Assembly (NCBI GenBank): GCA_021904315.1
Contig: CM038908.1
Span: 36,198,001 to 36,262,000 of the forward strand
From: Sphagnum magellanicum
Lineage: Eukaryota; Streptophyta; Sphagnopsida; Sphagnales; Sphagnaceae
Length of the DNA stretch: 64,000 nucleotides
Reading direction: 5' to 3'
The first letter of the stretch is position 1; every line of letters begins with the position of its first letter. A program made the translations under genes and the position numbers. The notes under the pieces are model-generated. The model made no database searches and had not been told where the DNA came from. It saw nothing but the letters and a program-made list of their open reading frames with translations. Below, piece by piece: positions 23,791 to 62,743 of the stretch.

Positions 23791-23870
23791 GTCATCATTA
23801 CCATCTACCTAATAGGCCGTGAAGTCCTCTTAGAAGGGCATTTTTCCCCCTTATTTCCATCCTATACATA

Positions 23871-40378: not shown

Positions 40379-41214
40379 CCTATACATATGATCTGGCCAC
40401 TACGCCCGCAGGGACGGGGGCTGGGGGCTGTTTGACCACCAAAAAAGGTGCGTAGGGAAGGGCTGTTTTCGCGTAGTGGGGGGCTGTTTTTGTTGACTTT
40501 TTTCACTTTTTGTTACTTTTTGTTACTTTTTTTACTACTCATAACTTTTATAAGTTACTTTTTACTGCTGAAACAGAGGTAAGGTTTTTTACTGTTTGTA
40601 ACTTTCATAAATTATTTTTTATTGTTGAGAAGGGCCAGGGTTTATAGGGTTTTCATTGTGTGAGGGGGGGGGGGACTTAAAAGCGTGCAGGTTGATTTTT
40701 TTCCTTCTATTTTTTTTACTGTCGAGGGGGAGGGGGGTGGAGGTTAACGTTTTTTTTCCCCTAGATATATGAAAAGGTGGAAGGAGGAGGGGGGGGGAAG
40801 GGGTACATTTAGGGTTTCTAGAAATGTTTTTTTCATTGTGAAGTGGCTAGGGAGGGGTTCACCAGGGGTTATATTTTTTTTACAAATTCATCATGGGATG
40901 GGGGAAAAGGTGCAGGTTGATTTTTTTTTTCTTTTTTTGACTGTTGAGGGGGAGGGGGGTGGAGGTTAATATTTTTTTTTTCTTTCATTTGACATGTGGA
41001 AGGAGGAAGGGAAAGGGATGATTTTTTTTTTTAAATTTTATTTTTTCATTGTGGAGTGGCTAGGGACAGGGGGGAACATGAAAGGGGTTTTTTTTTTATA
41101 TGTTGAAGGGGGATGGGAGGGAGTTTTTTTTCTATGTTCAAAAGGGATGAGAGGGGTTTTTTTTTTTTACAAGTTCATAGGGGTTAAGGTTGGTTTAATT
41201 AATTAAATCCGAGC
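40379..41214 (+). repeat. Composite T-rich/G-rich repeat, copy 3
   Basis: Head CCTATACATATGATCTGG with CCACTACGC matched downstream by GCGTAGTGG. A T-rich body and several GAGGGGGAGGGGGGTGGAGG blocks follow, then an ATGTTGAAGGGGGATGGGAGG tail. Same layout as the other copies. Confidence 0.85.
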
Positions 41215-42078
41215 TAAAATAAAATAAACTTAATTAAGTAGGTAGTTGATTTTCATGTAATTGATCATAAAAATATAATTCTCCATAGATGAATGAAATG
41301 TGACCATGTCATATGAAACGTTTTTTTAAATGAATTTTTAAAAATATCTAAAATGAGTTGCACATGGGTAATGTCATGTCACGCGGAGCCCAAGTCAGGT
41401 ATTGACCCTCGGAAAAAAACACCAAAAAAAACTTCAGGCAGCAAGTAAATAAGTAATTGTTTTTGGGTTGAAAAATAAAGGGTTGTTTAGGGCAGCTGAC
41501 AAGAATTAAGCCCATTACTTAAGCAAGTTAATAAGTAATTGTTTTAGTTTTGAGTTAAAAATAAAGGGTTGTTTCGAGCAAATGACAAGAATTAAAAGAT
41601 TACTTCAGCAAGTTAATAAGTATGGTCGTGATAAAGAATAATTTCTTCGGGCAGAAAAAAAAAATTCAACTTTGGGTTAGTAAAATTTTGGAAAGGGGGG
41701 GCAAATTATTAAAATAAGTTGACCCCATCCAAAACAGTTGGCTGTTGGCCCCCAAAAAACTCATTTGGGCAGTGAATCAAATACTTTTTAGCAATTCTTT
41801 ACGCAGAAAATTAAATATTTTGGAGGAAACCAAAAAATTAGGCAACAAATCAAATCATTTTGAGCAGATATTGGGTAGAATTTATTTTTCTTTCGAGCTA
41901 TTATCGGGGCGGTGAATAATACACCGGTGAACAAAAAATTTGGGAAGCGAATAATTTCTTTTTAGCAGAAAAATGGGCAGAAATAGAAATACTTTTTGAG
42001 CTTTGAGGCCGGGGAAAAAAAAAGGTGGGGGCAGTTGTGGTAGGGGCATATGAAAACAACACTAATCAAACACTTCTT
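41215..42078. other. AT-rich intergenic, nothing recognised
   Basis: Contains a partial duplication (AAGCAAGTTAATAAGTAATTG and AATAAAGGGTTGTTT recur at about 41440-41620). No gene. Confidence 0.5.
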
Positions 42079-43354: not shown

Positions 43355-43952
43355 CCTATACATATGATCTGGGCATTACGCCCGTAAGGTCGCAGGCTGG
43401 AGGCTATTTGACCAGCAAAAACATACTATAATGCCAGGCTGTTTGAGCGTAATGCCAGGCTTTTTTTTTTTGACTTTTTTCACTTTTTGTTACTTTTTTT
43501 ACTGCTCGTAACTTTTATAAGTTACTTTTTATTGCTGAAACAAGGGTAAGGTTTGTTACTTTTTTACTGTTTGTAACTTTCATAAATTACTTTTTACTGT
43601 TGAGAAGGGCTAGGGTTTATGGGGTTTTCATTGTGCAAGGGGGGGGAACTTAAAAGCGTGCAGGTTGATTTTTTTCCTTCTATTTTTTTTACTGTCGAGG
43701 GTTTAGGGGGGTGGAAGTTAACGTTTTTTTTTCCCTAGATATATGAAGAGGTGGAAGGAGGAGGGGGGAAAGGGGTACATTTAGGGTTTTTAGAAATATT
43801 TTTTTCATTGTGGAGTGGCTAGGGAGGGGTTCACTAGGGGTTATTTTTTTTTACAAATTCATTATGGGACGGGGGAAAGGGTGCAAGTTTTTTTTTTAAT
43901 TTTTTTTTGTACTGTTGAGGGGGAGGGGGGTGGAGGTTAATGTTTTTTTTTG
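43355..43952 (+). repeat. Composite T-rich/G-rich repeat, copy 4 (variant head)
   Basis: The head reads GGCATTACGCCCG (from 43372) instead of CCACTACG. The downstream words change with it to CTATAATGCC and GCGTAATGCC (43448-43456), so pairing is retained. The body and G-rich tail are as in the other copies. Confidence 0.85.
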
Positions 43953-44070
43953 CCTATACATATGATCTAGCCACTACGCCCGTAAGGACGCAGGCTGGAG
44001 GCTGTTTGACCACAAAAAAGGGGGCGTAGTGGCAGGCTGTTCTCCCGTAGTGGCAGGCTTTTTTTGTTGA
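43953..44070 (+). repeat. Composite repeat head only, copy 5
   Basis: A 118-bp head with CCACTACGCCC (43971-43981) exactly complementary to GGGCGTAGTGG (44022-44032). It is cut off at GTTGA and immediately followed by the next head, so heads can be stacked in tandem. Confidence 0.85.
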
Positions 44071-45560
44071 CCTATACATATGATCTGCGCACTACGCTCG
44101 CAGTGCGCGGGGCTGGGGGCTGTTTGACCACCAAAAAGGGAGCGTGGTGCGGGGCTGTTTTAGCGCGGTGCGGGGCTTTTTTTGTTGACCTTTTTCACTT
44201 TTTGTTACTTTTTGTTACTTTTTTTACTGCTCGTAAATTTTATAAATTACTTTTTACTGCTAAAACAGGGGTAAAGTTTGTTACTTTTTGTTACTTTTTT
44301 TACTGTTTGTAACTTTCTTAAATTACTTTTTACTGTTGAGAAGGGCCAAGGTCTATATTGTATTCATTGTGCGAGGGGGGAAGGGGTGCACCTTGATTTT
44401 TTTTTTTTTTTTTTTTCTATTGAGGGGGAGGGGGGGGGTGGAGGTTAATGTTTTTTTTTCCCCTAGATATATGAAAAGGTGAAAGGAGGAGGGGGGAAAG
44501 GGGTACATTTTTATTTTGGAAATGTTTTTTTTCGTTGTGGAGAGGCTAGGGAGGGGAAGGGGTAATTTAGGGTTCCAAAATCATTATGGGACGGAGGAAA
44601 GGGTTTAGGGTTTAAAAGTGCATGTTAATTTTCTTTTTTCTTTTTTTTACTGTTGAGGGGGAGGGGGGTGGAGGTAAATTTTTTTTTGGCCTTCATTTGA
44701 CATGTGGAAGGAGGAAGGGAAAGGGATGATTTTAATTTTTTTTTTTTTTTTCATCATGGAGTGGCTAGGGACAGGGGGTCAAGGGCTTTTTTTTTAATAT
44801 GTTAAAGGGGGATGGGAGGGAGTTTTTTTTTTTCTATGTTGAAAAGGGATGAAAGGGTTTTTTTTTTTTTACAAGTTCATAAGGGGGGGGGGGGGTTAGG
44901 GTTGGTTTAATTAATTAAATCTAAGCTAAAATAATATAAACTTAATTAAACTAAGCTAAACTTTGATATCCAATACGTGGCAATGTACATGTTACTTTTT
45001 TTATTGCTTGTAACTTTCATAAATTACTTTTTACTATTGAGAAGGGCGAGAGGAATTGTTTTATTAGTTATATTCATTGTTCAGGGGGAAGGGGTGTGTC
45101 TTGATTTATTTATTTTTTAATTCTTTTACTGTTGAGGGGGAGGGGGGGGGGTTCAAGTTTATGTTTTATTTTTCTCCTTCATTTGACATGTGGAAGGAGG
45201 AAGGGAAAGGCCCATGTTTTTTTTCGAATTTTTTTTTTTCATTGTTGAGTGGGTAGGAGGGTCAGGATTTTTTTCAAAAAAATATGTTGAAGGGGGATGG
45301 GAGGGGGGGGGGTTTATTTTATTTTTAAATCTTTTTTTAGGGTGTTGAATGGTTAAGGAAGGGGAGGGGGTTGATTTTTTTTTACAAATTCATAATGGGA
45401 GAAGGGGGGGCCAGTGGTTAAAAGTAGCCATTTTCAAAATACTAACCACTCATGGGCCTTGATTTTTTTATTTTTTTATTTTTCCCACCAAATGTCATCA
45501 TTACCATATACCTAATAGGCCGTGAAGTCCTCTTAGATGGGCATTTTCCCCCCTTGTTTC
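44071..45560 (+). repeat. Composite T-rich/G-rich repeat, copy 6
   Basis: The head has GCGCACTACGCTCGCAGTGCGC, with downstream GAGCGTGGTGC and GCGCGGTGC. A long body of T-rich and GGGGGAGGGGGG blocks follows, extending to the GTGAAGTCCTCTTAGA tail that also ends copy 1 (near 23820). Poly-T and poly-G runs exceed 12 bases in places. Confidence 0.8.
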
Positions 45561-45910
45561 CATCCTCCATTCTTTTATTTTAATTTTAATTTTTCTATTT
45601 TTTTTTAATTGTTACTTTTCATATTATTCTTTTCTTCTTCTTACTCAATGTTTTTTATTTTGATCTTTATTATATTTCCTAGTTTTACATTTCTTTATTT
45701 CTTTATATTTTAAGGAGGGGGGGGGGGGGGGGTTTCCTTTTTCTCTCCTTTTTTATATTATTCTTTTCCTCTTCTTACTGGATTTTTTTTTTGGGCCATA
45801 TTTCCCAATTTTATCTCTTCTTTGCTTTTTTTTTTTTTTTTTTTATCATTTATATTTTTTCCCCTATTTTTTTCAATTTGTGCCAATGCATTTTCTTCTA
45901 TTCTTCTATC
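45561..45910. other. T-rich intergenic with a poly-G tract
   Basis: Low-complexity TTTTATTTT sequence with a run of about 16 G at 45717-45732. No gene. Confidence 0.7.
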
Positions 45911-46905
45911 CTATCCTCGGTTTCGTAAGAGGCATTGAACGACTAACAGTGAACAAGTACATGCAAGCTTGGAATTAATACGATTTCTGATGGTTGATTT
46001 CCTCTTCAATTTTACAACCAAGCTCTTCGACCCCAACCCTCCAAAACTATGGCTAATTAACACAATAGGATGATGCCATTTATACCCGCACAAAACATAT
46101 TCATTTGCTATACTGAACTTCGAGGAAATATCTAATCGACTTCTACGTTTCATATTAGTTAAGTCTATATTTATGTGTGACTGAAATATATCATCGAATG
46201 CACACCTCTGACATTGCTCAAAAGAATTGTTGCACATTCCTGCACTTTAGCTGTCCTCGTGACATTGTCAGATTTTAGAAAGTCAAGGCCCTTTCCACTT
46301 TCAAAACCAAGCTTTTTAACACCAATCTCTAAAAACATAGCATATTTCAGCAATAAGGATGATTCCATTCACCCTGCACCATACATTACTGTGATATGTT
46401 CAATTTCAGGAAGTGTTGAAACACCATCTATAGTTGGCCGATATTCTATCATTGATAAGTGTACAAATTTTCTATATAATTGAGAGATGACCCAATGATT
46501 GAGCAACAAAATCTTAAATCCACAAATTTTAGTTGCTTGATATATTTGTGAGTGAAACCACTATATTTGCCCAAACATGACATTGTGACAATCAAAGAAA
46601 GGTGACTTGTACTTAGGATTGATGAGAGTTTGGTATACATTATTCGCAACATGTGATACATGACCAGGAGGGGAGCTTTCTAGTACATGTGCATTGTATG
46701 AAACTGAGAAAATGCGCACAACTTCCCACAAATCAGTTGGTAGCCATTCTTCAAGCCAACATACATCATCATGACCTCGTTGTGTCCCTGTGCCCCTCCA
46801 GGCATCACCCCTCCAGGCATCACCATTGTCATTTGCAGTTAGTTGGAGCCCACGAAATAAGACCACATCCATTTCAACACTTCGCTTGTCTTCACAAGGT
46901 GGCCA
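45911..46905 (-). pseudogene. SERAC1/PGAP1-type alpha/beta-hydrolase pseudogene with duplicated exon
   Basis: The first exon piece (46607-46905) encodes VLFRGLQLTANDN, GHDDVCWLEEWLP and VRIFSVSYNAHV, matching the oxyanion/lid start of this lipase-like family. A 15-bp duplication gives DAWRGDAWRG. The exon with the catalytic elbow then appears twice. The copy at about 46200-46385 is heavily decayed but keeps its CAG acceptor and ends in a recognisable LLSNVRGV part. The copy at about 45930-46095 reads WHHPIVLISHSFGG...SLVVKLKRKSTIRN. The nucleophile elbow is SHSFGG rather than the usual GHSxGG, and the second copy has GCGG where an AG acceptor is expected. Relatives act on lipids or GPI anchors at internal membranes. 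It is not functional as read. Confidence 0.75.
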
Positions 46906-48324
46906 CAGCTAATGTACCGGCCAATGACTCTGCCATCAAAATTCCACATTCAAAATATTGCACAGTAACCAAAGTCTAGATCATAACACCAAAAAGTATT
47001 GGAGACTTGCTGAGAGGAGATGCCACCAATTGGTTTACAAATGTAATAGAATGGGCTATTTGAACCAAAACTCTTGGAAATAGATTAGTATCACAATGGT
47101 CCAGTCAGCAAGGTAGAAAGAACTCACAAAACTAGCAACCATGATCATCAAGATGGCTTCTTGTCGTTGTACATAAATCCATGATATGGTAACACTCAGT
47201 GATACCTAGAATCTTAGCAGTCTCATCTATTGGCAAATTACCATTTCGCTCTATTTTTAAGAGCTGAGAGGAATCCAAAAATCCTCGCTCCTTGAATAAG
47301 TGGCTCTCATGACATAGAAGAAGAGCGCTGTTGCTCTCAAGATCTAATAGCTTTGCACTCCTCTTCAAATATTGATAGGTGAAAAAACAGCATGGTGGGA
47401 GCTGCCATACAAATGGCGGTGTTGCTGTCACGCATGCATTTTCCGTTCATTCACACAAAGGGAAAAAATCCCTGACAAACTCGTGCAGTTACAAACATCA
47501 TACATTGTTGCACATTGTTGAGCTCTTCTCTGAATTCCCAATCAAACAATAGAGAGTCAATTTGTAGACTCTATCGCCTAGCCTTAGACACACATACAGT
47601 ACCACCCTAGAAGTCAGACTCTACACATTATTTGGGAAAAACATGAAGGGTGGTGAGAAAACAATACATAATATTCTATTCATCTGGTTTTTGCCCATTA
47701 AGTGATTGGATCTGCTAATATGATTAGTACACATTAGTCGACTCTTAAACAAAGAACTACTCTCATATGATCAAAATAACACAAATCTTTAGACCCTAGG
47801 CAAGACCCATGTTCAGACAATGGTACACAGAAAGAAAGGGAGGCCAACATCCAAAATCTTGCATCGTCAAGAACAATACTTGAAATTCCTGAGTCTGGAA
47901 GCACCATAAGAAAGAATAGCCAGCGACAAATGACATGCTGAAAAATTGCCATAGAATTTCAACAACACCGTTATCTCTTCGACAAGAAAATCTTATGCTT
48001 TGTACCTCATAAATTGGACGCATAAAGTTTGAATCCAGCTGATGCAAAGGCAATCTGCAAAAGACAAACCTTCAAACGGTTCAAGGTCCTTGAGCAACAA
48101 CAGGTAGGACTCCGTTTTAGAATGTGATTTCAAGAACTTTCAAAACTAAAACTTCAAGTGATACTGGAAAGCAGTTTGCTGAACTGATCCACCAGATTCC
48201 AATTGTTCAAGAAACAATCAATGCACAACCAACAAGAAAACATGAGGTTAGGAGTCCATGTAGCACAATACCACCAATTGTCGTTTTGTAGATGCCCTAG
48301 AAAATAAAGTTGCTTGCAAGCCGG
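46906..48324. other. Unassigned region upstream of the hydrolase pseudogene
   Basis: A minus frame at 47132-47431 (ending with an IERNGNLPIDETAKILGI segment) and another at 47796-48053 look protein-like and lie on the strand of the hydrolase remnant. They may be its upstream exons, but I could not assign a domain. Nothing else is recognised. Confidence 0.3.
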
Positions 48325-48753
48325 TCACATGCCAAGGAGATGGTTATCGGCTGCGAAAATGTAGACTCCACAGTAGTCATAGTCGAAAACCAATAGGAAA
48401 CCCTCAAACCGCCAGGAGTTGGGAGCCATCGACGCTGGAGCACAGCATTCATTTCTCATGGGAAACGGGAAAACCGTCGAAATTAACAATATACCTACTA
48501 TGTGACTTTTCCGTGGACGTCCCCCATTCCAAGAAACCACACAACACGAACATAGACATGACTGATCTTCAATACTCTCCGCACCGCATTGGACACCATA
48601 GTTCGGTGAAGCTCCTTCATGCTCGACCACTTGTTCTATTATTACCCCAGGGGGGAACATTGGTCGAAAACAACAAGACACACGGTCTTCAGATTCCAAC
48701 AAAACCCGAACCTGTACAAATCGTACACGGAACTTTACAATATGCGACGGCAA
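48325..48753 (-). CDS. Unassigned 142-residue open frame
   Basis: Open frame on the minus strand with two Cys-rich spots (CCFRPMF, CLCSCCVVSW) and no domain I recognise. It overlaps the plus frame at 48619-49233, so at most one of the two is real. It could be an exon remnant of the hydrolase locus downstream on this strand. Confidence 0.15.
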   Translation of the reverse strand: MPSHIVKFRVRFVQVRVLLESEDRVSCCFRPMFPPGVIIEQVVEHEGASPNYGVQCGAESIEDQSCLCSCCVVSWNGGRPRKSHIVGILLISTVFPFPMRNECCAPASMAPNSWRFEGFLLVFDYDYCGVYIFAADNHLLGM

Positions 48754-49233
48754 TCTTCACACCTCCGAAACAATCTTCACAATGTGTGTAAGGCAATGCA
48801 CCGCGAAAGAGGAATTGAGAGAGAGTGGATGGAGCAAAGAAAAATGTCAGTTCAGAAAACTGAATCCAAACAATCTACAACCTGCAGTAGACTTGGAAGT
48901 ATACCCACAAAAGGGGTACTAGCGGATGCAAGCCCTAGAACCAAAACTAGTAAGGAGTGGGAGGAGCTGCTATGGAATACAGCAGAGCAGGAGATGAAAA
49001 CGGAGCTAGGGAGGGGTAAAATACCAAGGAAACAAGCACAATATAGCTTTGAGCGACACGTACAAGTCTATGCGGAGGAGGATGAAGTCGTTAGTGACCC
49101 TTACTGTAGTGCGACTTCATCAAGCTTTAGTGATTCTGATGCCAGCCTTTCTTGCACACCGCCTTCCATTCGTTGCTGTTGCAGCCCTAAAAAACTTGCA
49201 CAAAGATGTCAACCACAACGAAAGGAGGCATAA
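48619..49233 (+). CDS. Unassigned 204-residue open frame
   Basis: The longest plus-strand frame near the helicase locus. It is basic and Arg/Lys-rich in the middle (KTSKEWEELLWNTAEQEMK), has a Ser-rich acidic patch (SSSFSDSDASLSC) and ends with CCCSPKKLAQRC. I do not recognise the family. The composition looks like a genuine plant exon rather than a repeat, but no splice or promoter support is visible. It ends 45 bp from the 3' end of the convergent OrsD-RecQ locus. Confidence 0.3.
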   Translation: MLDHLFYYYPRGEHWSKTTRHTVFRFQQNPNLYKSYTELYNMRRQSSHLRNNLHNVCKAMHRERGIEREWMEQRKMSVQKTESKQSTTCSRLGSIPTKGVLADASPRTKTSKEWEELLWNTAEQEMKTELGRGKIPRKQAQYSFERHVQVYAEEDEVVSDPYCSATSSSFSDSDASLSCTPPSIRCCCSPKKLAQRCQPQRKEA

Positions 49234-49277
49234 GTAATACAACACAGCCGACAGTCCTTGGACATATGGGTTTAATC

Positions 49278-49823
49278 CTAGAATTGTATTTTTCTATGAT
49301 TGTCTTGCTCCAGCATTCGAATGCACGCATCTACCAATCGTGTGAAGTTGGTGATAGATCGTCCCAAGGCCTTCAGTCCCATCCATCGAGCCAATTCTTC
49401 ATCGCGAGTGATGTCTTTCAATTCCGGCATGGCCTTGTGCATGTCTGACGGGTTGCGACGCCAAATGGCCCAAAGAAGAATGCGGTATCGTTCACCCCGA
49501 ATTTGACCCGGGCAATCAACACCGTACCTTCCTTCGTGCAACTGGACATTGCCTAACGCCTGCCCGTTGTGCAAAAGGTGGCACTTGGGACAACTGTCAG
49601 GTGACCGGGGAATGGAATTAGGGCAATCCGACCTAGGATGCGATCCCAGACATTTGAAGCATCGACAACCATCCAGCAACAACGGACAATTTTGACTGGG
49701 GTGACACAAGTTTCTAGCATCGCCGTAAACACTGCACATGAGACAATTGGGTTCATCAGGAGTCGCAAATCGACGAAAATTCTTCAAGGATGTACAATCC
49801 TCGTTCATGAAGGAGGTGAGCAT
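49278..49823 (-). other. Segment 4: C-terminal Cys/His-rich tail
   Basis: The last open piece of the frame, 181 codons. Cysteine pairs are spaced as in a multi-zinc tail: CLMC, HPSQNC, CRCFKCLGSH, CPNS, CPKCH, DCPGQ. A helical region ends it. The same order of Cys/His groups occurs at the C-terminus of fungal OrsD-RecQ relatives. It ends with TAA/TAG at 49278, giving the probable natural end of the ancestral protein. Confidence 0.7.
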
Positions 49824-50246
49824 TGTTGCTCACACCCTAAGCATCGGCAATGGTGGGGGGGGTTCTAGTGACACCGCCCTCGATTGTCGTACACAATTGT
49901 CGCACGATTGTGCTGCTGGAATTAGGTTGCACCGTTGTGATTAACCATCCACAGCCAAATGAAGGTTGTGTCATCGACAATTCTCCGTGTCCGTGATCCA
50001 AGCATTGGGTTCGACGAACGATGAATCGATGTGCAAAGCTTCAGCTCTAGATTTTGCACTAGAAATCACTCTGCTAATACCAGGTTTACCGTTGCGAGCA
50101 AGTCGGCCCGACTCTTGGTGCAGAGCAGCAAAAGACCTAAAAGATCCACGGTGAATGACCAGCCTAACCGAGGGGTAGTTGTACCCACACCCAATGACCC
50201 CGGTGGCCACCATAACCCGAGCTTCGCCCGAAAGCCATGATTGTAA

Positions 50247-51668
50247 TTACGCTTTCTTAGCGTCTTCATCCAGATGGGCATGAAGATGGGCGGTCCTGAC
50301 GCATGCCACGTTATTAGCGATCGATGCCACACGTTCGACAGACTGTCGTGTCAAGCAATATACGATTGCCCTATCCGTCTCGGAAGACACATCGCAATCC
50401 CATTCAATAAGTTGTCGAATGATTTCATCGTCGACATCAACCACTTCATCGACGACATATCCAATCAACGGGCGCACTGTGGACATCCGGATGACGGTGA
50501 GTGACGTGGACATCACGATCTTAAGGTCAGTCTCTTGAGAGGGGGACAAAGAGGCTGTCAATGCGACGAGTTGGCACCCCACGGCCCACAACGGCAATAG
50601 GCGCTCCATGACCGGTCTGAAATCGGACAAAAGCAAATGCGCTTCATCCACAACAACACAATGAAGCTTTTGCAAATGGTTCAATGTATGTGCGAGTTCC
50701 ACAAACCTGGGAGTTGCTGCTCGTTCCACTGATACGAACAAGATGGACGGAGGATCATCAAATGTAATCGTGTCCGTGCCATAGGTTGCGTATCGTAAGC
50801 TAGCTCGACTCGCATCAGCTTCGTGTTCGCTGACAAGGATGCTGAAAGGTACCACCACGATGATGGTGCGACCAGTGACCATGGGTGGAATCATGAACGC
50901 GGCTGATTTGCCATGTCCAGTGGGCATGACCACCAATAAGTCAAGTCTATTTTCCAACACTAATGTCACAGCCAGGCCTTGTTCCTTGCATGTCCATTGT
51001 TCATGGCCAAATCGACGAAGAGCTCGTAAAGCACGCACTTCGTGTGTTTGATCTCGAGGTGGAGGCGGGATGGCCGGTTGAGCGGGAGTCTGTGGGACCG
51101 AATACATGAGCAATGCGAGGAGAGACGCGCAATCAGATTGCAACGGACACTGGGTGTTGGGTCGGTCAATAATCATCGGAATCTCAACAGTCGAAGTACC
51201 TGAGGGAGGTGGATCGAGGGGGCTCCCATCGAGTTGTAACAAGCGATGCCATGCTTCGGCGGCCAATTTGTATGAGTACATTTGTTGGCTGTCCATGAAC
51301 CTGTGATCGTTCGAACAGTTGGCATAATGTCTTGCGGCCGTGGCGGAAGAGTGCCCTGGTGTTTCGTCAATGGGAAATTTCGTGCAATAACTTTGTTTAA
51401 TGGCGCCGCCGAAGTAAGCGGCGAGATGACAATAATCCGCAATCCCAAGATCAAGATTTGCATGCTCAAGGAACCCAGCGACCACCAAACGCGAAACATG
51501 TCCGCCCTCCATGGCCGCATCTCGTTGAATGGCCCAAACGTTCATGTATTGTTGGGCAGCGTCGATATTTCCACGCAAACCAGCCATGAACGACTGTACC
51601 GGCCTCACAAGCAACATATATTCAATGAACAACAAATTCAGTTTTGGAGGTAGGAAACGAGGTATCAA
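50247..51668 (-). other. Segment 3: recombinase C-terminal half and RecQ helicase core
   Basis: 473 open codons. Residues 71-81 read NLDLGIADYCH, where relatives have Tyr-Arg-His; here the codon is TGT. Residues 105-115 (GHSSATAARHY) fit the histidine/tyrosine box. Helicase motifs follow: I at 251-255 (GHGKS), II at 341-344 (DEAH), III at 371-373 (TAS), then AIVYCLTRQSVERVA. The TAA at 50247-50249 comes right after HLDEDAKKA, and the frame continues with LQSWLSGEARVMVATGV, so motifs V and VI lie beyond the stop. Confidence 0.8.
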
Positions 51669-51707
51669 TTTGACAGGCGGCCCTGCATTTGCGCCCTTAT
51701 GGTATCT

Positions 51708-52076
51708 CTAGAAAGTCATAATGGTGCCAAAGGACCAATAGAATGTCCTATCAGAATGTTCCGTGTTGCGAATGAGATAACTTTTATACTCCTCCCCTCG
51801 AGGAGGACCACCGGCAGTGAGATGCATGAGTAAAAATAACAACGCATGCATATGATCGGCTGCTCGTGCCCACATTGCCAAAGCATTTTCATTCCATATG
51901 ATGGATCGATCGTTGCTTGTGCCTTTGATAAAAAGTCCTTGAGTAAGTCGATCGGTAAAAAGGTGGATGGCCAGATCCTGTCCATGACGATGAAATTCGT
52001 TACGGGCATCCGACAAGAAAGAATATCCAATTTCGTCTTCATTCACCTTGTCGACGATGTTGCCTTCCGCTATCAC
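51708..52076 (-). other. Segment 2: recombinase-like box with Arg-Gly-Glu
   Basis: A 122-codon open piece, same frame as segment 1. It holds MHLTAGGPPRGEEYKSYL, which matches the first arginine box (R-x-x-E type) of tyrosine recombinases as found in Crypton and OrsD-RecQ proteins. After the TAG at 51708-51710 the frame goes straight on with RYHKG, a conserved follow-up in the fungal relatives. The stop therefore interrupts a conserved block and is not a natural end. Confidence 0.7.
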
Positions 52077-52112
52077 CCAACCGATCCAGGTCGTCTGGAG
52101 TCCCAGTAGTAA

Positions 52113-54077
52113 TTAGTTGCTCATGACTTTATTTGCCTCGCCGAACAGCTTGCCAACCAGGTTTCGTAATGTGTCGATTGTCATAGCTTGACCATCGATC
52201 GTGCAGGCCAAAGGACCGATTCGAACTAGTCTGGGGACGTTCGGGCCGTCGCCCAACACCGTGCAAGCAAGGCGCATGGTCTCCCGCAATCTGTTGAACG
52301 GTGTGTCCTTGGCGTTATCACGAATGCAGGCGAGCCACTCCTCAGCCTCGCACCAAGGGATGGTGGGGTGATCAAGCTGCCACATTGGACGCACAAGCTG
52401 CATGAGGATCGTGCATCTCCACCAATACTCAAGAATGGCTATGGGACCTGTCACATGTCGAACATGTTCAAAGGCAACGCTGGTTGATGAAGGGTTCGAC
52501 TTTAGGCTGTTCACAATCAGGAACCTCATTATTGGACAACCGGTTTGTAGCCCATGCGGAACGACCGGACACATCGGCGGTCGACAAATGTGCAGCAACA
52601 CCGTGTGGATGTGAATGACATCTTCATTGTCCATGTCTGCATCTTGCCGACCTCGAATATAAGAAATGAGACGGTCGAGTGCATTTGTGAGGTCCGAATG
52701 CAATTGGCCAAGAACATTGACGAATGGCTTATCATCCGTCGGGCTGCTATCTCTGGATCGGACCATCGCAATGAGAAGCTTGGTCATCAGCGTACAATAT
52801 TTGCTCACTGTGGATGGCACCCAAAGCTGGTTGAGCCCCACCGTGGCCACGGAGGAATCTTCGACAGAAACTACCAGCCGCTTGAGATGATATGGCACAC
52901 GACCAATCATGGTCTGTGCGTTCTCCAAATATGCTCGGACCATCGAGGGCAGGCAATCCAAATTGAATTCCCCATTCATCGGGGTCGGGAGCACGCTTGC
53001 TTGCTTGATATGGTCCAATGGCATACCCGCTGGAATGATGTGGTTGACAGCTAGTTCGTGCCAACGAGACACCCTGAGCCATGGACTCAACTCACGAATG
53101 GATGGATTTGGTGCCACATTCAATACCGAACATTCGTGGGCCTCTAACGAAGCACACACTTGCTCCTTAAGTTGGAGCCCCATCGGGTCACCCACAAGCT
53201 CCATATTTTGGTGGTCGACACCAAAATAGGCGGTGTGCCCAACCTTTCTAAAAAGGCGCTGCACTTGGCACGGTTGGCAACTAGCATTAGCTGGTAAGAA
53301 AAAATGGTTGGCCAGGCGATGATTGGCGATGGTCCTCTTGGAAGCGGAATAGTACACACATCCATCCGCCTTGCATCTATATCCATTGATGACCATGATA
53401 CCTGGGACCACAGGTAAAAGCTCCTGCGGTGGAGATGTGGTATACCTTTCAAGGCGAGGGTCTTGCAATTGGGTGAATTCAATCTCATCAAACAACGGTG
53501 CAAAATCTGTGAGAGGTGGGATCGTAATCACACGATGTTGGCCACCGTTGCGATGCCGTTTGGGAGCTCTATGATTGTCGTGCCCCAATAGGTGGTTATG
53601 CACTTGGCAAGGCTTCGGCTCCAAACATACATCACAAACCTTGCACAACAATAGATGAATGCCATCCACGATGTTGAGAACAACAAGGCCAACATCACGG
53701 AGCAACTCCGGTGTTTGTTCGACGGGTGGCTGAATTAACATGCCCATCGACATCGCCTTTTGCACATTGTCGTCATGGAGCTCATTAAGGGCTGAATTGT
53801 TTTGTTCCACATGTTGCACTTTGAAATGGCACTGGAGCTTATCGCTGCGTTCAAATGCCCTTGTGCAGCAATCAACGGGGCAAGGAAATTTGCCTTCAAT
53901 GGATCGGTGGACAGTAATTCGACCAGTGGCAGTGCGAACCTTACAAGTGGATTGATGCACCAATCGGCGATGTCCATCACGTTGATGAGAGGCGGGAAAA
54001 AAAATGTTGCACTCGGGGCATTCGAAGTTAGCCATGAATACCATATGCCAATATATAAGTGTTTGTGAACACAACAA
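52113..54077 (-). other. Segment 1 of the locus: C2H2 and OrsD-type zinc-binding region
   Basis: The longest uninterrupted piece, 654 codons. Near the N-terminus are two C2H2-like fingers (CPEC...HRRLVH and CPVDCCTRAF...HFKVQH). Next comes LLCKVCDVCLEP with trailing histidines, then VPGIMVINGYRCKADGC with NHRLANH. This paired arrangement is typical of the OrsD (DUF3505) family next to RecQ helicases. The rest is helical and resembles the linker preceding the recombinase core. It ends in TAA at 52113-52115, and the frame continues past it. Confidence 0.8.
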
Positions 54078-54789
54078 AGCTACAACTGATAATAGAAGGT
54101 CAATATATCAATAACTCGGGCTTTGTCAAACTGACCTTAACCCTGCAGACAAACGAAATTGAATTTTTGGTGTGAGCGATTTTCCCCAACACAACATCTA
54201 CGCAAAATGACAATGTTCAAATTCATGCATACAACAAAACAAATATGTTCGGTAGATGCGGTTACTTGGTCACATTGCTAGAATAGGTTTGCACATATAT
54301 GGAGTCAAATCTGCGATGTGATCTAACCATCGTGCTCCCTCCGCCTCGTAGCCCCTGCAAAACATGGGTGTGCTGGAGTTGAAAGATGAAAACAACACAG
54401 ATTCCATCCATGCGACAAACTCCCAATGCACACACTTCAAATGTTTGGAGCTATGTAAACCAATATATCATGAACTAATGTTTGCACATTACGTTAATTT
54501 GGTATTGCGTAGACAAACATTCGTTTCGCCAACACTAATAACGTCTTTGAACCATCAAAAAATACTGCAAAGATATCAGGGGCAGTCATACAAATTTTGT
54601 TGTGATCTCATAATTGTATCTATGAGAACAAGTTGAAATTTGCAACATGCTGCATGATTCACAAAAGAATTTTGTATTCCTAATGATTTTTCACTACACT
54701 TCAAAACCACGATGACAACGACAACAAATGAAATTTTGGGAGGGAAAGAAATGCAGATGCTGGTATAGGTTGAGGTTTTGATACCTGCA
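54078..54789. other. Upstream flank of the OrsD-RecQ locus
   Basis: AT-rich again. On the minus strand TTTGTCTGCAG near 54135-54150 could be an acceptor of a 5' UTR intron, but no upstream exon is seen. No inverted repeat or target duplication bounding the helicase locus could be recognised by eye. Confidence 0.35.
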
Positions 54790-57700
54790 CTCGCTCATTG
54801 TGCTCAAACAAGCTGGCATGTGTGTGGAGTTGAACTTAGGATGTTTGTGCTACAATGCCCCCTGCCAACATAACATACACAAAAAATGACAATTCAAAAC
54901 TTCACAATTTGAATGATAGGCCAACCTTGCGTAAGAGATTTCAAGATGCATCTCTGAATTTTACATGGAGCTATATGTTAGGTTGCTCACCTTAAGAACA
55001 AGAGTTTGGTGATGTACATCGCTATACTGCATAAACACAATAGCTTTTGGTTTTCCAAATCACAAGATTTCGCAATTCAAAAGTCTGTAATTTGAACGAT
55101 GGGCCAACCTTGCATAAAAGATTATAAGATGCATCTCTAAATTTTACGTGGAGCTACATGTTAGGTCGCTCACCTTAGGGATAAGAGTTCGGTGATGTGA
55201 AGCGCTATGCTACACACAACAGCTTCTGGTTTTCCAAATCACGAGATTTTGCAAAACAAACTCCTGCTGCACACACCAGAAAACTGGAAAAAATAAATCT
55301 CCATCCCCGTACATTTATTCTATGCCCTACTCCAATTTCATCATGTTTGAAGGAATTGATAAATGACGTGGTTAAATGTACTTTGGCCTTCGTAGCACGT
55401 TGCGCAGCCTTTTTATTGCCATCCATGCATATATGCTATTTATTTTTATAAATGGAATCCAATTTTTGTAAAAAGGTAAATTACTTTGTGTTGGATTTGA
55501 TGCGATTAGGTATTCATTACAATATGGGTGCCAACTCTTCGAATACAGTTAGGAAAATGTTGAACATAGTTTCAGGTATTTAATGCAGGCTGCACAAAAA
55601 TCTTGTGTACCATATATGTAGCATATTTTATAATTTTTGCATGTTGCATAAATTGACCCGTATAACATTTCCCCGTGGTGCTACCACATGTCATTTTTTT
55701 ATAATAGGGCATATCACACATTATGATTAAAACAAAAAAAATTTGATGGCAAACAGTGGGCAAATTTGGGCTTGAAGTCCCTTTGTCCTACCACTCCACT
55801 AAATTTTTCAAGAAATTTTCCAGGCGAGCCCATTCGGTGCCTTGTTGAGTGGTTCCGCTTTCCTTCTCTTTCACTCTACTCAATTATAGCAACGTGGTTT
55901 GCATCGTTTTGTGTTTTTTGTACATAGTCTAAATAGTTGTGTTTGCATTATATTTGGCTTTTGACCACTCGTCAAAATATCGCCATTGAAGTAATTTTGT
56001 AGAACTGTTTTTAAAATAAACATTGAAGTAAAGGGCTTACAAGGGCCATTCGGCGAGGTAGGGAAATTTAGGGGCGGGGGGGCGAATGTGGCGGCCCCGT
56101 GAACATTATTTTTAAAGGTTCAGGGAAAGTGTTGTAATAAGAGGATCCATCAAATATGCAATCACATAACATTTGCGGACATGTTTGATTCATGGCCAAT
56201 TTATCTTTTGTATATTTGGTGGGAAACAGATGATATTTTTGTTCCCGTCATTCAATAAACATTAATTCATCCTCCATCCCAACAAATCTTGCGTGCAGAG
56301 TTGAAAATGCGATGTTTGTGATGCAGTGCCCCCTCCCAACATAACATATGCAAAAAATAACAATTCAAACGTTCACGGTTTGGATGTTGGGCTAACCATG
56401 TGTAAAAGATTCCAAAATGGATCGGTGAATTTTACATGGAGATATATGTTGTGTTGTTCACCCGAAGAACAAGATCTTGGTGTTATACACTTCTATATTA
56501 CACATACAAAACAGCTTTTGGTTTTCCAAATCGTGGGATTTTATATGACATATTCCTCTTGCACACATAAGAAAATTGAGAAAAAATGAATGTCTAACCC
56601 CTGACCCCCCCCTTTGTTTGTTGCATGTCCTGTTCCAATTTCATTATGTTTGAGGAAATTGATCCATGATTCAATGAAGTGTACTTTGGCTTTTGCATGA
56701 TGTTGCACAACCTTTTTATTATTGTCCATGCACATATATGTTATTTATTTGGATAAATGGAATCTAATTTTGTAAAAAGGTAGATTACTTTGTGTTAGAT
56801 TTGATACGATTATGTATTCATTGCAATATGGGTGCCACCTCTTTGAATACGCTTGGGAAAATGTTGAACGTAATTTTAAGTATTTAATGTGGCCTGTACA
56901 AAAATCCTGTGCACCATATATGAAACATATTTTATAATTTTTACATGTTACATAGACTGACCCGTATAACGTTTTCCCCATGGTGTTATCACACGTCATT
57001 TTTCTGTATCATGTCATATCACACATTGTAATTAAAAAAGATTATTTACTTTTTACGGTAGAAAGTCACGAAATTTTTAGTCCAATTCGGGTCTTCCTAC
57101 CACTCCACTAAATTTGTAAAAAAACTCTCAATGCAAGCTCACTCGGTGGCTCGTTAATTAGCTTCATTTTCCTTTTTTTTCAACGTACTCAATTATAGTA
57201 TAACTTCTCCTAACATAGTTCGAATCATTTTACGTTTTTGTGTGTAGTTTAAATAGTTTCGTTGGCATTATATTTGGCTTTTGACTACCCATCAAAAAGT
57301 CACCATTGACACAATTTCGTAGAAAATTTTATAAAAAACAAATCGCGAACTCGAGGGCTTACAAGGGCCATTGGGAGAGGTTAGAGAAGCATATGGAAAT
57401 TGTTTTTGGGGGGGGCGGGTTCAAAATCGTGAGCCATCACATAACATTTATGGACATGTATGATTTATGGCCAATTTATCTTTTGTGTTTTTGGAGGGAA
57501 ATAAATCTGATTCTTGTTCTCATTGTTCAATAAACCTTTAATTCGTCCTCCATCCCAACAAAGCTTTGTTACAATTAATGCTTATAAATTAAAAGGATCT
57601 GTGATATATGAAACTTTGTGCAAGCGTGAAACTTTAATACAGTTTACCAAAAATGTCCCAAGATATTTACTAATTAAAATCAACCACGACTCAACACGAT

Positions 57701-58020
57701 CACATACTTTACATATGCCATACGCCATTGCCATAATGATCCTTTGGGCAAAACAACCCTAGCTATTAGTAGGTCGCCGTAAAAAATAATTCTTGATTTA
57801 TTTTGTGATATGGCTTAAGTCGTTCCATACAAATTCATATTAAATACCTCTTTGATGGTAAAGATTTTCAATTTGACAAGTATATTTTATCCATTTTCTC
57901 CAAGCTATTTTTTAATTTCCCCAGGAGAAAAGTTAATCCTAAACCCTGAACCCTAAAACGAGATTTGTGGTTGGTGCACCGGTGGGTGTTGGGTCATTTA
58001 AGCCCAGGAAAAAAAAAGGG
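54790..58020. repeat. Diverged direct repeats of about 1.3-1.5 kb
   Basis: Two long, similar segments follow each other. ATGTTTGTG...CCCC(T/C)(G/C)CCAACATAACATA starts near 54841 and 56312. AAATGGAATC(C/T)AATTTT...TTACTTTGTGTT recurs near 55450 and 56753. GGGCTTACAAGGGCCATT recurs near 56034 and 57354. Within 54890-55250 there is a further tandem duplication of about 180 bp (TTTGAATGATAGGCCAACCTT and its near-copy). No coding domain was found. Confidence 0.75.
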
Positions 58021-58570
58021 GAAATTTTATATGGCGGGAACTTTTTTTCTCCTTTAATCAAGCAATGAACATCCTTGGTGGGCGGGAGTCATACAATACT
58101 CTTGCTTTAAAAAAATGCAAATGATTACGATCCTAAAACAAAACACGTCCTTACAGAGCATTAAATATTTATACCCTATTAAATGTATTCACAAAACATG
58201 AAAAAACAAACAAAAATCCTTGGGTGGTCCACATGTATATACCAAACATTTGAGGGGTCCAATAAAGCAGACTGTAAAAAATAATTCTTGATTAATTTTG
58301 TGATACAACTTAAGTTGTTCCATACAAATCCATATTAAATACCTCTTTGATGGTAAAGACTTTCAATTTAATAAGTATGTTTTATCCATTTTCTCCGAGC
58401 TATTCTTTAATTTTCGCAGGAGAAAAGTTTGTCCACTTTGAACCTTAAAACGAGATTTGTGACTGGTGCACCAGTGGGCGTTGGGTCATTAAAGCCCAGG
58501 AAAAAAAAAGGGTAAATTTTATATGGCATGAATTTTTTTTCATGTTTAATCAAGCAATGAACATCCTTGG
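57780..58570. repeat. Two direct copies of an about 270-bp repeat; third copy at 61078
   Basis: The order ATTCTTGATT(T/A)ATTTTGTGAT, TTAAATACCTCTTTGATGG, GGAGAAAAGTT, ACGAGATTTGTG, GTTGGGTCATT(T/A)AAGCCC(A)GG begins near 57788 and 58285, and again near 61083. It forms part of the same dispersed family as the 54.8-57.6 kb repeats. Confidence 0.75.
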
Positions 58571-58919
58571 TGGGTAGGAGTCCTACAATACTCCTGCTCC
58601 AAAAAAAATGGAAATGGGGTATTTGATTTCTTCATGACCGCTCAAATAGAAATTTGACCGCAATCAACAGATGCACCAACAAGTCCACCAACAAGCAACA
58701 AACAAAATCTTTAATGAAAGGAAAGAATTCAACAAAGCGTTATTTAAAGCCTAACACGGAGTACGTGGATCCTCGATATTGTGCACTTATCTGAACATTC
58801 GCAAATCCAACATTCTGAGAGCCTACTCAAAAGGTAATTTGAGTCGGATTGCAATCTTGGTAACAATTCTAACATATGAATGGCGGACATCATGCACAAT
58901 CACTTTCCCAAAAAACATT
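58571..58919. other. Intergenic, nothing recognised
   Basis: AT-rich, no gene or clear repeat. Confidence 0.4.
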
Positions 58920-59170
58920 CATCATTTTTTAAAATCGTTTATGGATGGGGTAGATCATTTCGAAACATTCATGGATGTCGTGGATCATTTTCGATCACCC
59001 ATGGACGAAAGAGATGATTTATATTCATTCCATAGGGTGGTGGATCCTTTTTTGGTAAGGCATGGATGACGTGGATTATTTTTGGTCATCCATACATTAT
59101 TGAGATCATTTTTAACTGCCTAGAAAAACACCAATTGCGCAGATCATTTTCATTTTCCCAATGCCCTGGA
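58920..59170. repeat. Degenerate minisatellite of ATGGATG.(C/G)GTGGATCATTTT units
   Basis: At least five loosely matching units of about 30-45 bp occur: GATGGGGTAGATCATTT, GATGTCGTGGATCATTTTCG, GACGAAAGAGATGATTT, GGGTGGTGGATCCTTTTTTG and GATGACGTGGATTATTTTTG. They produce a repetitive short open frame (58779-59069) that I do not treat as a gene. Confidence 0.7.
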
Positions 59171-60399
59171 TCACGTCCATCGTCAATATATAACCCCAAT
59201 ATGGGGTAGATTATTTTTGGTCGCCGATACATGGCCTGTATTGGTATTATTTTCTATACCAGGCCTCGGTTGATTTGCTTGCAGTCGAAAGGGACTTGAA
59301 GTCAGAATGGGTGCCAAATATGATGGCGAAACCAATGCAATTTGTTGGAATGTTGACATCATTGCCAATGAAAAGTTGACACGTCACATCAACTTTTGCC
59401 CCCCATTGACTGGATAAGATTGTGCCCAGTTGAAAGTCTTATGGAAAATCAAAATCGCTTCATGGGCGGTTGGTAGGAACAAGTGTGTCGGGGATCGATA
59501 GGTCGAAGGCAAGTAGGTCGATGCTTGCAGATGGTTGGTGTTTGTGTAATGTGCACATATGGCACATTGGTTGGTGGGTGGGGGCAAAAAGGTGCTCAGT
59601 AGGCCGATGCAAAGCTCACCGAACTCACTTGATTATCATATATTGTAAAGGAAGAAAGTTCCTTCCCCTGAAGCTGTCCAAGGTACTAAAATAGTGTAAA
59701 TTAAAAGGACCCAATCAAATGTCACCTTATGGGTCAATCACTGACATTAGTGAATCAAAGGAACTTTTTTCATCAAAAAAAAAAAAAGATAAAATCCAAA
59801 AATAAAGGAAAATGTTTCTTTTCCATCTTTTTTGGTTTCTTTGATCCTTTTATTTTTATTTTTATGTAGGATAGTTTTTATTTCAATGGTGTGATTAGTG
59901 GTGCAGTTGAAGTGGTGATCCTCCATAACAAAGATTTAGCCAAATTGGGCTATAAACAAGATATGAAAGTGGAACAATTTAAGCACTCTTCTATATTGTT
60001 TCCTAACTATGGGCACCTAACATAGAATTCTTGGGATTTCTTTCTTTTTCCTTTTTCCCCCAAAATTTGGTGACAAAACCCGCAAATTTCACTTTTTCTC
60101 AGTTTAGATTTTCTTCATCAAATATATAGTTAGAACATCCCTATAAAAAGTTGTTCATAGAAGGATGGAGTCATTTTTATGAAATTGTTACATTAAAAAA
60201 AAACTATTAAAGGATGTTCATAAAAATATTGAGCTAGAAGTGATGATTCATAAATTATTTGTTTTCAACTTTTGTGATGTAGACTAAACCCTGAATCATA
60301 CATAAAAAAATGGAGACAACCACGATAACAATCGTCTCTTTTTGCCTGAGTGGCCAAAAAATCTCACAAAATTAATGTCCATGGATACTTCTGACAATA
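59171..60399. other. Intergenic with a dispersed repeat copy
   Basis: No gene. About 59915-59975 is an inverted copy of the AGCCAAATTTGGCTAAAT family, containing CAAAGATTTAGCCAAATTGG and AGATATGAAAG. Confidence 0.5.
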
Positions 60400-61460
60400 A
60401 AGAACCTCCCAATGGAAGCTCACTCCCTGGCTCGCTAATCGACTTCCTTTTCCTATTTTTTCAATGTACTCCATTGTAGTATAACTTCGCATGGCGTGGT
60501 TCGAATTATTTTACGTTTTTGTGTGCAGCTTCAATAGTTATGTTTGCATTCTATTTAGCTTTTTACTACCCATCAAAATGTCGCCATTGACACAAGTTTA
60601 TAAAACATTATATATAAAAATAACAAGAATCTAAAGGGCTTACAAGGGCCATTGGGAGAGGATGGAGGAGCATATGGAAATTGTGTTTTTGGGGGGCCAG
60701 AGAGGGGGGGGGGTGTCAAAATCGTGGGCCATCACATAACATTTAAGGACATGAATGATTCATGGCCAATTTATCTTTTGTATATTTGGAGGGAAATGGA
60801 TCTTATTCTTATTCTCATTGTTTAATAAACATTTAATTCGTCCTTCATCCCAACAAAGCTTTGTTATAATGAATGTTTATAGATTAAAAAGGATGTGCGA
60901 TATATTAAAGTTTGTGCAAGCGTGAAAACTCTAATACTGTTCACCAAAAATGTCCTAGGGTATTTACCAATTAAAATTAACCGCGATTCGCCACGGTGAC
61001 ATACTTTAGATATGCCCTGCAGCGTTGCCATAATGTTCCTTTTCCCAAAACAACCCTAATTCTTATTTGGTCGTCATAAAAAGCGATTCTTGATTTATTT
61101 TGTGATACGGCTTAGGTTATTCCAAACAAATTCATATCAAATACCTCTTTGATGGCATAGATTCTTAATTTGACAAATATGCTTTCTCCTTTTTTTCCGA
61201 GCTATTTATTAATTTCCCTGGGAGAAAAGTTTGTCAACCTTAAACCCTAAAACGAGATTTGTGGATGGCGCAGTGGTGGGTGTTGGGTCATTCAAGCCCG
61301 GGAACAAATAAAAACCGGGAAATTTCATAAGGCACGATTTTTTTTTCCCATTCAATCAAGCAATGAACATCCTTAGAGGGCACGAGTCGTATAATACTCC
61401 TGCTACAAAATGATGCAAATGATGGCGATCTTGAAACGAACTACCTCTTTAGACAACATT
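60400..61460. repeat. Third copy of the 54.8-58.5 kb repeat family
   Basis: GGGCTTACAAGGGCCATTGGG (about 60636), ATCACATAACATTTAAGGAC, TTGTATATTTGGAGGGAAA and the ATTCTTGATTTATTTTGTGAT block (61083) appear in the same order as in the copies at 57.3-58.0 kb. The repeat is dispersed, same orientation, diverged. Confidence 0.7.
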
Positions 61461-62743
61461 AAATATTTAGTGAAGGTAGGCCTGAGGCCTCAAAACACAA
61501 TCTAAATTTTCAGGGCGCCACATGGCATCATTTTTTTAGTATGGTGCCAGTGTAGGTGTTGGTTCACCCAAAGGGATTCATCAAATGATGAAGGTAGCAT
61601 AAATCTCAGAGACAACTTACATGTACATATTCACTTTTAATCTATCTCTTGACCGGTCTTTTTTTAGTTGGCCTTTGTGTGATGGGTTCAAGATTATTTC
61701 ATGCTTTCAATTCATGAGTTCAGGTTCTTTTTTCCTCTTTTATGATCCAACGGCTTTTCACAGGCTTATTTCATCTGAACGTAGTTCATTGATGAATTAT
61801 TTGAAGTAAGCTGCTCAATGCCTGTTTTGCATTAAAAAGTATCATCACTAGCAAGTTTACAAGGTAGCAATAGTTTTCTTTGGTTTTTTTTTCCCCCCAA
61901 TTTTGATGGACCTGAAGGGGCAATCATCTAAACAAAGATTTAGCCAAATTTGGTTTAAACAGGTAATAGATGGATTAGGTTGTTGAGCTTGTTGGCTCAT
62001 AATGGATTTCTCAAGCCACTTCTTGCCAATTTTGTGATATAGCCAAAGTCGAGACCAACCACATGTGGCTATATACCAGATATGAAAGTTACCGAAGAAA
62101 AACTCTATATGCTTGGTTACCCACTGGAATTTATTTATCATTAAAAAATGGCAATTTGGACATTTTCTCATTTTTGAAATTTGGTGAATTTGGCTGAAAT
62201 TTTCCTTGATTATCCTTCCTATCATGATTTTTTCCGCAATTTTTTAGTGGAGGTAGGCCTGAGGGCTCAAAACGCAATCTAAATTTTCAGAGTGCCACGT
62301 GGCATCATTTAAAACACTTTCAAAGGAAAGCTGAAGGTGACCAACCAGTCATCAGTTAAATAGTTGAATGTACACTCGAAAAGCACATTTTCCGAAAAGT
62401 TTCTAAATATTTTGATCACAAATGGCCAAAGAATAAAAGAAACCACTACTTTGTAAGGTAACAAACCATACTTTTCAGGCGGAACTTTGCTGAAAATTTG
62501 CCAATAAAACAAATCACTGCAACTGAGCTGATTTGCACTTTCACAAACAATTTTTCCTTTTCTTGCAAATCCCAGTGCCCACATATTTTAGATTAAATAG
62601 TGGACCAATATTGTTGCCCAATTTCATATCATATTTTGGTTTCTGGTCTAGGGGCGACTTTAGACGAGTGTCCAAGGTGCAGGGACCAATGAATTCAAGC
62701 AATCTTATTGGTCGAAAGCTTCAAATTGGTTCCAAGGCCTTAA
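61461..62743. other. Intergenic with paired GTAGGCCTGAGG repeats
   Basis: About 61465-61530 and 62250-62325 share GTAGGCCTGAGG(C/G)CTCAAAAC, CAATCTAAATTTTCAG and GCCAC(A/G)TGGCATCATTT. The second continues into ACACTTTCAAAGG, and its inverse is found at about 21985-22020. A copy of the AGCCAAATTTGG family lies at 61920-61975 (inverted). No gene recognised. Confidence 0.55.

Follow-up and report, generated by a model that had tools for sequence, protein, structure and literature searches.

Telomere-linked helicases and comparable systems

The telomeric retrotransposons of Drosophila, HeT-A, TART and TAHRE, are based on reverse transcriptase (RT) and form head-to-tail arrays of copies in the same orientation, with the 3' end toward the chromosome body and 5'-truncated copies toward the tip. 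The Cryptons and other eukaryotic elements with a tyrosine recombinase (YR) encode this enzyme without an RT or a DDE transposase, the Cryptons being short and interspersed. The yeast Y' elements have telomere-type repeats nearby, and we know of no OrsD or YR domain in them. Here we describe a multicopy element of the peat moss Sphagnum magellanicum, which carries a gene for an OrsD/YR/RecQ protein and is compared below with these systems and with the telomere-linked helicase (TLH) genes of fungi. It was studied in a stretch of 64,000 nucleotides (assembly GCA_021904315.1, contig CM038908.1, positions 36,198,001 to 36,262,000), here called the window, whose coordinates are used throughout and in which a first-pass annotation had singled out a frame of 1600 codons.

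Reports of RecQ-like genes at the chromosome ends of fungi go back to 1998 (Sanchez-Alonso and Guzman, cited via PMC10532341); roles have been proposed for them and are unsettled. In Colletotrichum higginsianum, three families of 11.3-18.5 kb with a helicase and DUF3505 are reported to occupy each of the 24 subtelomeres, always facing the same way (PMC5576322), and in Fusarium the FoTeR retrotransposons accompany the TLH genes (PMC12857005).

We read the moss element as a plant branch of the fungal TLH elements, arrayed like the Drosophila telomere retrotransposons. The features by which a TLH element is recognized, that is, a RecQ-type SF2 helicase, an upstream OrsD/DUF3505 domain, and multicopy subtelomeric loci lying one way, are all found in it. 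The RecQ-type helicase is shared with Ustilago UTASa and UTASb, Fusarium TLHcr, Magnaporthe TLH and the Colletotrichum DHX_G198 group, several of which have OrsD/DUF3505 and which are likewise multicopy and subtelomeric (PMC10532341, PMC12857005, PMC5576322); the uniform orientation relative to the telomere is common to the Colletotrichum elements (PMC5576322) and the moss element. Unlike its fungal counterparts, the moss element resides in land plants with TTTAGGG telomeres, has a YR domain between OrsD and the helicase, which goes unmentioned in the excerpts of the fungal TLH accounts consulted for comparison, and ends on the centromere side in a fixed terminus common to many short copies. 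It resembles yeast Y' as a helicase-coding subtelomeric block (PMC4522978) and is distinguished from it by the fixed proximal terminus with different flanks. As in the Drosophila elements, the arrays are one-way, head-to-tail, and truncated toward the tip, but the only recognized gene encodes a recombinase-helicase, and TTTAGGG repeats are also present. Going by the general description of Crypton-type elements, the presence of a YR without RT or DDE transposase is a further likeness, whereas the fusion of the YR to OrsD and RecQ in an end-linked element of 16-19 kb is a difference.

Among the matches listed from the open-licence PMC literature, no paper dealt with telomere-linked helicases in bryophytes, and none joined a telomere-linked helicase with a tyrosine recombinase. 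So far as this literature tells, elements of this kind are known in fungi; new are their occurrence in plants, their YR domain, and a fixed terminus accompanied by arrays. With the same architecture found near moss chromosome ends, a YR domain recognized within it, and one-way truncated copies that share a fixed terminus, what was a vague subtelomeric repeat becomes a mobile element that can be put to the test; the finding also bears on the repair and rebuilding of plant chromosome ends. Should the YR domain also be present in the telomere-linked helicases of fungi, these too may be recombinase-driven elements, which would provide a mechanism for genes of unclear role.

Distribution of the element at chromosome ends

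The assembly comprises 439 Mb in 31 contigs, and distribution was counted on contigs C1-C20. A search of the moss's own genome gave at least 53 matches, which, after merging of same-strand matches within 6 kb, formed 30 loci, 26 of them on C1-C20. Against expectations of 0.12, 0.24, and 1.2, eight, 10, and 16 of the 26 are found no farther than 50, 100, and 500 kb, respectively, from a contig end. The 5' side of the gene points toward the tip at all 10 loci within 100 kb and at 11 of the 16 within 500 kb; since subtelomeres exchange DNA, the loci are not independent. About 24 kb separate the window copy from the C2 right end, and the window itself stops 12 kb from the contig end. Telomere repeats (at least five CCCTAAA in 500 bases) begin 12 of the 20 left contig ends, and TTTAGGG arrays (at least 10 in 500 bases) are found at seven of the 20 right ends, the right end of C2 being without one. 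This subtelomeric setting goes beyond the first-pass annotation, as do the uniform orientation, the fixed end, and the damage to the window copy (six stops and the change of one recombinase Arg to Cys) that are described below.

The fixed centromere-side terminus

The element copy holding the gene (44071..62732, minus strand) is about 18.7 kb long. Its fixed end, 44071, is on the centromere side, downstream of the gene, and its limit on the tip side is the diverged next terminus at 62733. The fixed terminus (44071..44108, plus strand) comprises CCTATACATATGATCT and the hairpin GCGCACT-ACGCTCGC-AGTGCGC, and is borne out by the recurrence of a 16-mer. Within the window this 16-mer stands without mismatch at six positions (0.03 expected, allowing up to two mismatches), and it does so at six positions in the other loci read, with one more occurrence, at the left end of C4, containing one mismatch. 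At the resulting 13 sites, a count that covers the DNA read, mainly chromosome ends, the DNA outside the terminus differs from site to site. Twelve sites are in chromosome-end DNA, and 11 of these 12 extend toward the tip, the exception being the left end of C4, where the contig carries no telomere repeats at its end. The thirteenth site belongs to a copy 1.86 Mb inside the chromosome in C18.

The closest copies are alike far past the limits of the gene, at 98.4-98.9% DNA identity. The likeness between the window and C10 (98.3%) starts or stops at 44071, and the copy inside C18 has this terminus too and extends from it through window coordinate 60240. Beyond the large copy lies a diverged copy with its own hairpin terminus (62733..63361, plus strand). 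In this diverged terminus (62733-62790) the stem is a different one, GGCATTAC...GTAATGCC. The folds, each made for a single sequence, suggest conservation of the terminal hairpin as a structure despite changes in its letters.

Tip-side ends and short copies

On the tip side the copies end at various places, namely at window coordinates 52499 in C10, 60240 in C18, 60342 in C13, 60501 in C11, and 62732 in the window. The copy in C10 lacks about 510 N-terminal residues because of its tip limit. The copies at the left end of C2 and the right end of C7 extend past 62100, with the tip end beyond the sequence read, and for the C13 and C11 copies the centromere-side terminus is outside the stretch read; both ends were read in two copies, those of C18 (16.2 kb) and the window (18.7 kb). 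The likeness stops at TTTAGGG repeats in C11 and C13 and about 23 bases from them in C10, and the C18 copy is followed on its tip side by non-telomeric DNA.

Ten further copies, all of them short, begin at the terminus and are truncated on the other side, with alignments from 47 bp to about 1.3 kb. Four of them reach the terminus of the next copy. Three of these are in the window, on the plus strand and in the same orientation: a copy of about 1.1 kb (22757..23860) runs up to the terminus at 23861, with element-like pieces to 23863; a copy of 598 bp (43355..43952) adjoins the terminus at 43953; and a copy of 118 bp (43953..44070) extends from its terminus to that of the large copy. The last coincides with a tandem repeat of period 118 at 43943-44191, and the pair 43953/44071 is possibly a local tandem duplication instead. 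The fourth runs in C5 from 6990 to about 9 bases before the terminus at 5728. One short copy, in C12, meets a telomere array, and one, at 3870 in C11, meets subtelomeric repeat DNA. The other four end in unclassified DNA, namely a copy of at least 424 bp (23861..24284) and one of 859 bp (40379..41237) in the window, both on the plus strand in the same orientation, and those at 5728 in C5 and in C4; the copies at 23861, which may reach about 24755, and in C4 may run past their first alignment. Among the 15 tip-side ends assessed, five meet telomere or subtelomeric repeats and five meet another terminus (one of these, 62733, being diverged).

Situated 3.8 kb from the terminus, toward the centromere, is a TTTAGGG array with a subtelomeric repeat unit (39711..40285, plus strand), which matches, at about 80-83%, 14 of the 15 left contig ends compared out of 20. 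It is likely the relic of an earlier chromosome end that was later built upon. The array lies tipward of the copy in C10, C11 and C13 and centromereward of it in the window; an array on either side, as in a Y'-type arrangement, was seen in no single copy.

The OrsD-YR-RecQ gene

The first-pass annotation had described one frame with zinc fingers, OrsD, several sequence boxes, RecQ motifs, and a Cys/His tail, and all of these were recovered on the minus strand, which it had left unstated. Positions 54077-49278 make up a single 1600-codon frame, interrupted by six internal stops (three TAA, one TAG and two TGA); counting the terminal one, the gene frame has seven stops, against 41-88 in each of the remaining five frames over the same stretch. 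The first plausible ATG, at 54035, gives a product of 1585 codons (49278..54035, minus strand), of which the window holds a pseudogene copy. The order of parts is C2H2 fingers, OrsD, YR domain, RecQ-type helicase, and Cys/His tail. Three domains, all on the minus strand, exceed the Pfam cut-off: OrsD (DUF3505; PF12013, E=3.1e-9, aa 127-244, 53304..53657), the DEAD/DEAH helicase domain 1 of RecQ type (PF00270, E=1.8e-15, aa 1019-1166, 50538..50981), and the Helicase_C domain 2 (PF00271, E=8.4e-14, aa 1210-1316, 50088..50408). The C2H2-type finger close to the N terminus (CPEC...H...H, 53955..54020) and the Cys/His-rich tail after the helicase (49578..49745), both on the minus strand and without a Pfam match, were read from the translation. 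The translation also contains the boxes HLTAGGPPRGEEY, RYHKG, GHSSATAARHY, GHGKS, DEAH, and HQESGRLARNG. The helicase part is RecQ-like, its top solved relatives being RecQ, RecQ5, and BLM; a Foldseek comparison of the whole-protein model, the N-terminal part of which is of low confidence, with the PDB gave nothing useful. The gene is indeed higher in GC (0.500) than its surroundings (0.36-0.40), with 0.389 and 0.362 in its two flanks and 0.404 in the remaining window.

The middle domain (51201..52238, minus strand), placed by aligned residues and an AF2 domain model, is with moderate confidence a tyrosine recombinase, judging by the residues R...K...R...H...Y in this order and by a YR-like predicted fold, in agreement with the recombinase core proposed at first. 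The window copy keeps R746, K780, H895, and Y904 and has Cys in place of R869. In the seven other copies of the same genome, K780 and Y904 are present throughout, and R746, R869, and H895 in six each, the exceptions being C18 (R746 deleted), C8 (His for R869), and C9 (Gln for H895). Among the rows readable at each site in the protein alignment of the relatives, R746 is found in 13 of 16, R869 in 19 of 22, H895 in 21 of 23, and Y904 in 22 of 23. Box II of tyrosine recombinases usually has a His three residues upstream of its Arg, and this His is absent upstream of R869. The AF2 model of the domain (pLDDT 75.7, pTM 0.80) gave tyrosine recombinases in all of rows 1-14 of VIA-align, which is moderate support for the fold. 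Since no Pfam model matches the recombinase part, its identity rests on the aligned residues and the predicted fold; the refutation that the first-pass annotation had set, a failure of the OrsD and recombinase profiles to match, did not come about, as the OrsD profile matched. A Foldseek search of BFVD with the domain model found nothing at E<=0.001, the entry B5LWN9, an uncharacterized 620-aa protein of the brown-algal Feldmannia species virus, being seen at probability 0.99, TM 0.40, and E=0.015.

The gene contains stops in all eight copies examined. A single stop is present in C7, in C18 and in C11; C10 has two within its homologous part, two further ones counted for it falling outside homologous DNA; the copy at the left end of C2 has three and the window copy six; and C9 and C8 have many, the C8 count being partly an alignment artefact. 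The C18 and C11 copies have an insertion of about 830 bp each, and C18 has in addition lost about 220 bp. dN/dS is 0.35-0.73 among the copies of the window, C2 left, C7, C18, and C11, the pairs to which the range is confined. From the stops and these ratios we read the family as recently spread and now decaying. The two insertions of about 830 bp are at different places in the helicase gene, and at both of them the alignments on the two sides overlap by 5 bases; they are perhaps members of one small transposon family.

Relatives and origin of the protein

With the 486-residue middle piece as a query, 87 proteins were returned. The named relatives of high identity were from Sphagnum jensenii, S. 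balticum, S. troendelagicum, and S. tenellum, many further relatives had 65-97% identity, and all these were followed by a protein of the fungus Cladobotryum mycophilum (30%) and then by generic RecQ. Among the best 120 of 237 matches of the whole protein, the liverwort Calypogeia fissa came first (34% over 66% of the query, E=3.5e-141), followed by two OrsD-RecQ proteins and then generic RecQ. The N-terminal alignment as a query gave 32 proteins, 31 of them at 66-91% identity, and the outlier, P0235 (22%), has the same YR boxes. The two OrsD-RecQ relatives carry the same boxes as the moss protein, and the Cladobotryum protein, which is partial, carries the last of them, a GH...Y box, followed by the helicase. 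These searches were word-limited, with one named fungal protein with the same boxes among the matches listed. In the Cladobotryum protein, residues 45-81, which adjoin or overlap the YR box GHGTHVAG, match Peptidase_S8 weakly (E=0.07), and this might lead to misannotation. As to a viral origin, no relative could be confirmed in two scans of viral contigs; the tblastn matches listed for plasmids (20 of 54 records) were RecQ-like or unannotated, below 60% identity.

A helicase tree of 21 rows was built from six bryophyte, three fungal-type and 12 RecQ proteins, one of the three fungal-type rows being from a fungus identified by name. The bryophyte and fungal-type proteins are split from the 12 RecQ proteins by a 100/100 branch, and the bryophyte proteins form one clade (support 100/99) beside the fungal-type rows, not nested in them. 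Together with the domain order and the PF12013 match, this grouping upholds the likeness to fungal telomere-linked OrsD-RecQ genes noticed at first. The family is resident in several bryophytes, because relatives are found in Sphagnum species and a liverwort and because the bryophyte proteins form a clade. The suggestion of an ancient horizontal transfer is not supported as it was put, because that clade sits beside the fungal-type proteins and not within them; as judged from this small helicase tree, neither transfer nor shared descent is demonstrated.

Contamination by a fungus, or a very recent transfer from one, would agree with the description of OrsD-RecQ telomere-linked genes from fungi (PMC10532341, PMC5576322) and with the Cladobotryum match that has the GH...Y box and then the helicase. 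Such a source is highly improbable in view of the copies in many contigs of a chromosome-scale assembly, the presence of the family in four named Sphagnum species and one liverwort, the TTTAGGG-type repeats at the junctions, and the 100/99 support of the bryophyte clade. The first-pass annotation had named best matches restricted to a contaminating fungus as a refutation, but the named close relatives come from the four Sphagnum species; contamination was rejected as already contradicted by these results, and an old transfer may have occurred.

A proposed mechanism and its alternatives

We propose, with moderate confidence, that the copies constitute a resident family of peat moss telomere-linked mobile elements, the OrsD/YR/RecQ protein of which attaches new copies by their fixed end. 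The protein would recognize the hairpin end of its own element, for which the fingers and OrsD, as parts that may bind, are plausible candidates; the YR domain would cut or join at the hairpin, the RecQ helicase would open, unwind or extend the DNA, and the new copy would be joined by its fixed end to a site that is worn, broken, or internal. Erosion might then shorten the exposed tip-side end until telomere repeats or the next copy cap it, and exchange between subtelomeres might later spread larger blocks. Of the two options offered by the first-pass annotation, it is that of a little-described helicase-recombinase mobile element in plants which these results support. Only tentatively do we add that the family could be a DNA-based counterpart of the Drosophila telomere retrotransposons, with a recombinase-helicase element that joins itself by its fixed hairpin end to worn or broken ends of land-plant chromosomes and builds one-way arrays there, next to repeats of the telomerase type, a proposal that we regard as rather doubtful.

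Several observations weigh against attachment by the fixed end. Five of the 15 tip-side ends, including that of the internal C18 copy, meet unclassified DNA, which has lowered our confidence. The subtelomeric copies share very long blocks, those at C2 right, C2 left, and C7 right being alike past the limits of the other copies; exchange from end to end yields a uniform orientation automatically; and damage was found in every one of the eight copies. These three points would fit a passive, Y'-like subtelomeric repeat that is spread by ectopic recombination or break-induced replication, with the gene product not being the mover, and recombination of this kind is invoked by the Colletotrichum authors (PMC5576322). 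We consider this unlikely, since it predicts centromere-side breakpoints that vary, whereas a constant terminus against different flanks is seen at the 13 sites, the one deep inside C18 among them. The ten short copies count against our proposal in another way, because a start at the terminus with truncation on the opposite side is the usual pattern of long interspersed nuclear elements (LINEs). The fixed end could then be the 3' tail of an unseen non-long-terminal-repeat retrotransposon or of a family like the short interspersed nuclear elements, which sometimes copies the helicase block by target-primed reverse transcription; fungi do have telomere-targeted LINEs, FoTeR and MoTeR (PMC12857005). 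Yet among the 18 stop-to-stop frames of at least 90 codons outside the gene in the element, none was above the Pfam cut-off and none had a reverse-transcriptase match, though a decayed or trans-acting RT could escape such a scan. No clear target duplication was seen either, the flanks of the ten short copies sharing repeats of 5-6 bases or none, with an 8-base T-run at one of them and 5 bases at C18, a comparison limited by several tip-side ends that are not exactly placed; and the terminus has no poly(A) or simple-repeat tail. A retrotransposon origin of the fixed end accordingly seems to us improbable. An end recognized by the element's own protein is favored because exchange misses the constant terminus and, for retrotransposition, no RT match above the Pfam cut-off, no tail and no clear duplication was found.

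Other features of the window and contig ends

At 37000-40000 of the window a degenerate G-rich repeat, GGGGTAAAGCG-like with periods 10-62, shows a very strong strand bias, its GC skew reaching 0.56; this repeat ends at the interstitial TTTAGGG array at 39711. The left ends of C2, C5, C19, and C20 begin with N and have exactly 2,500 N in their first 10 kb, apparently an assembly or masking convention. At the left ends of C10, C11, C13, and C16, repeated subtelomeric units contain short CCCTAAA arrays. Sphagnum telomeres are reported to be of the TTTAGGG type, and a strong interstitial-like band near 2.1 kb has been described in S. fallax (PMC10856949), on which the subtelomeric units with embedded telomere repeats might bear. 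Finally, an open frame of 835 codons at 16305-18809, on the minus strand, contains a 303-bp tandem repeat (3.5 copies, 89% match), and may be a repeat-protein gene, perhaps of the PPR type.

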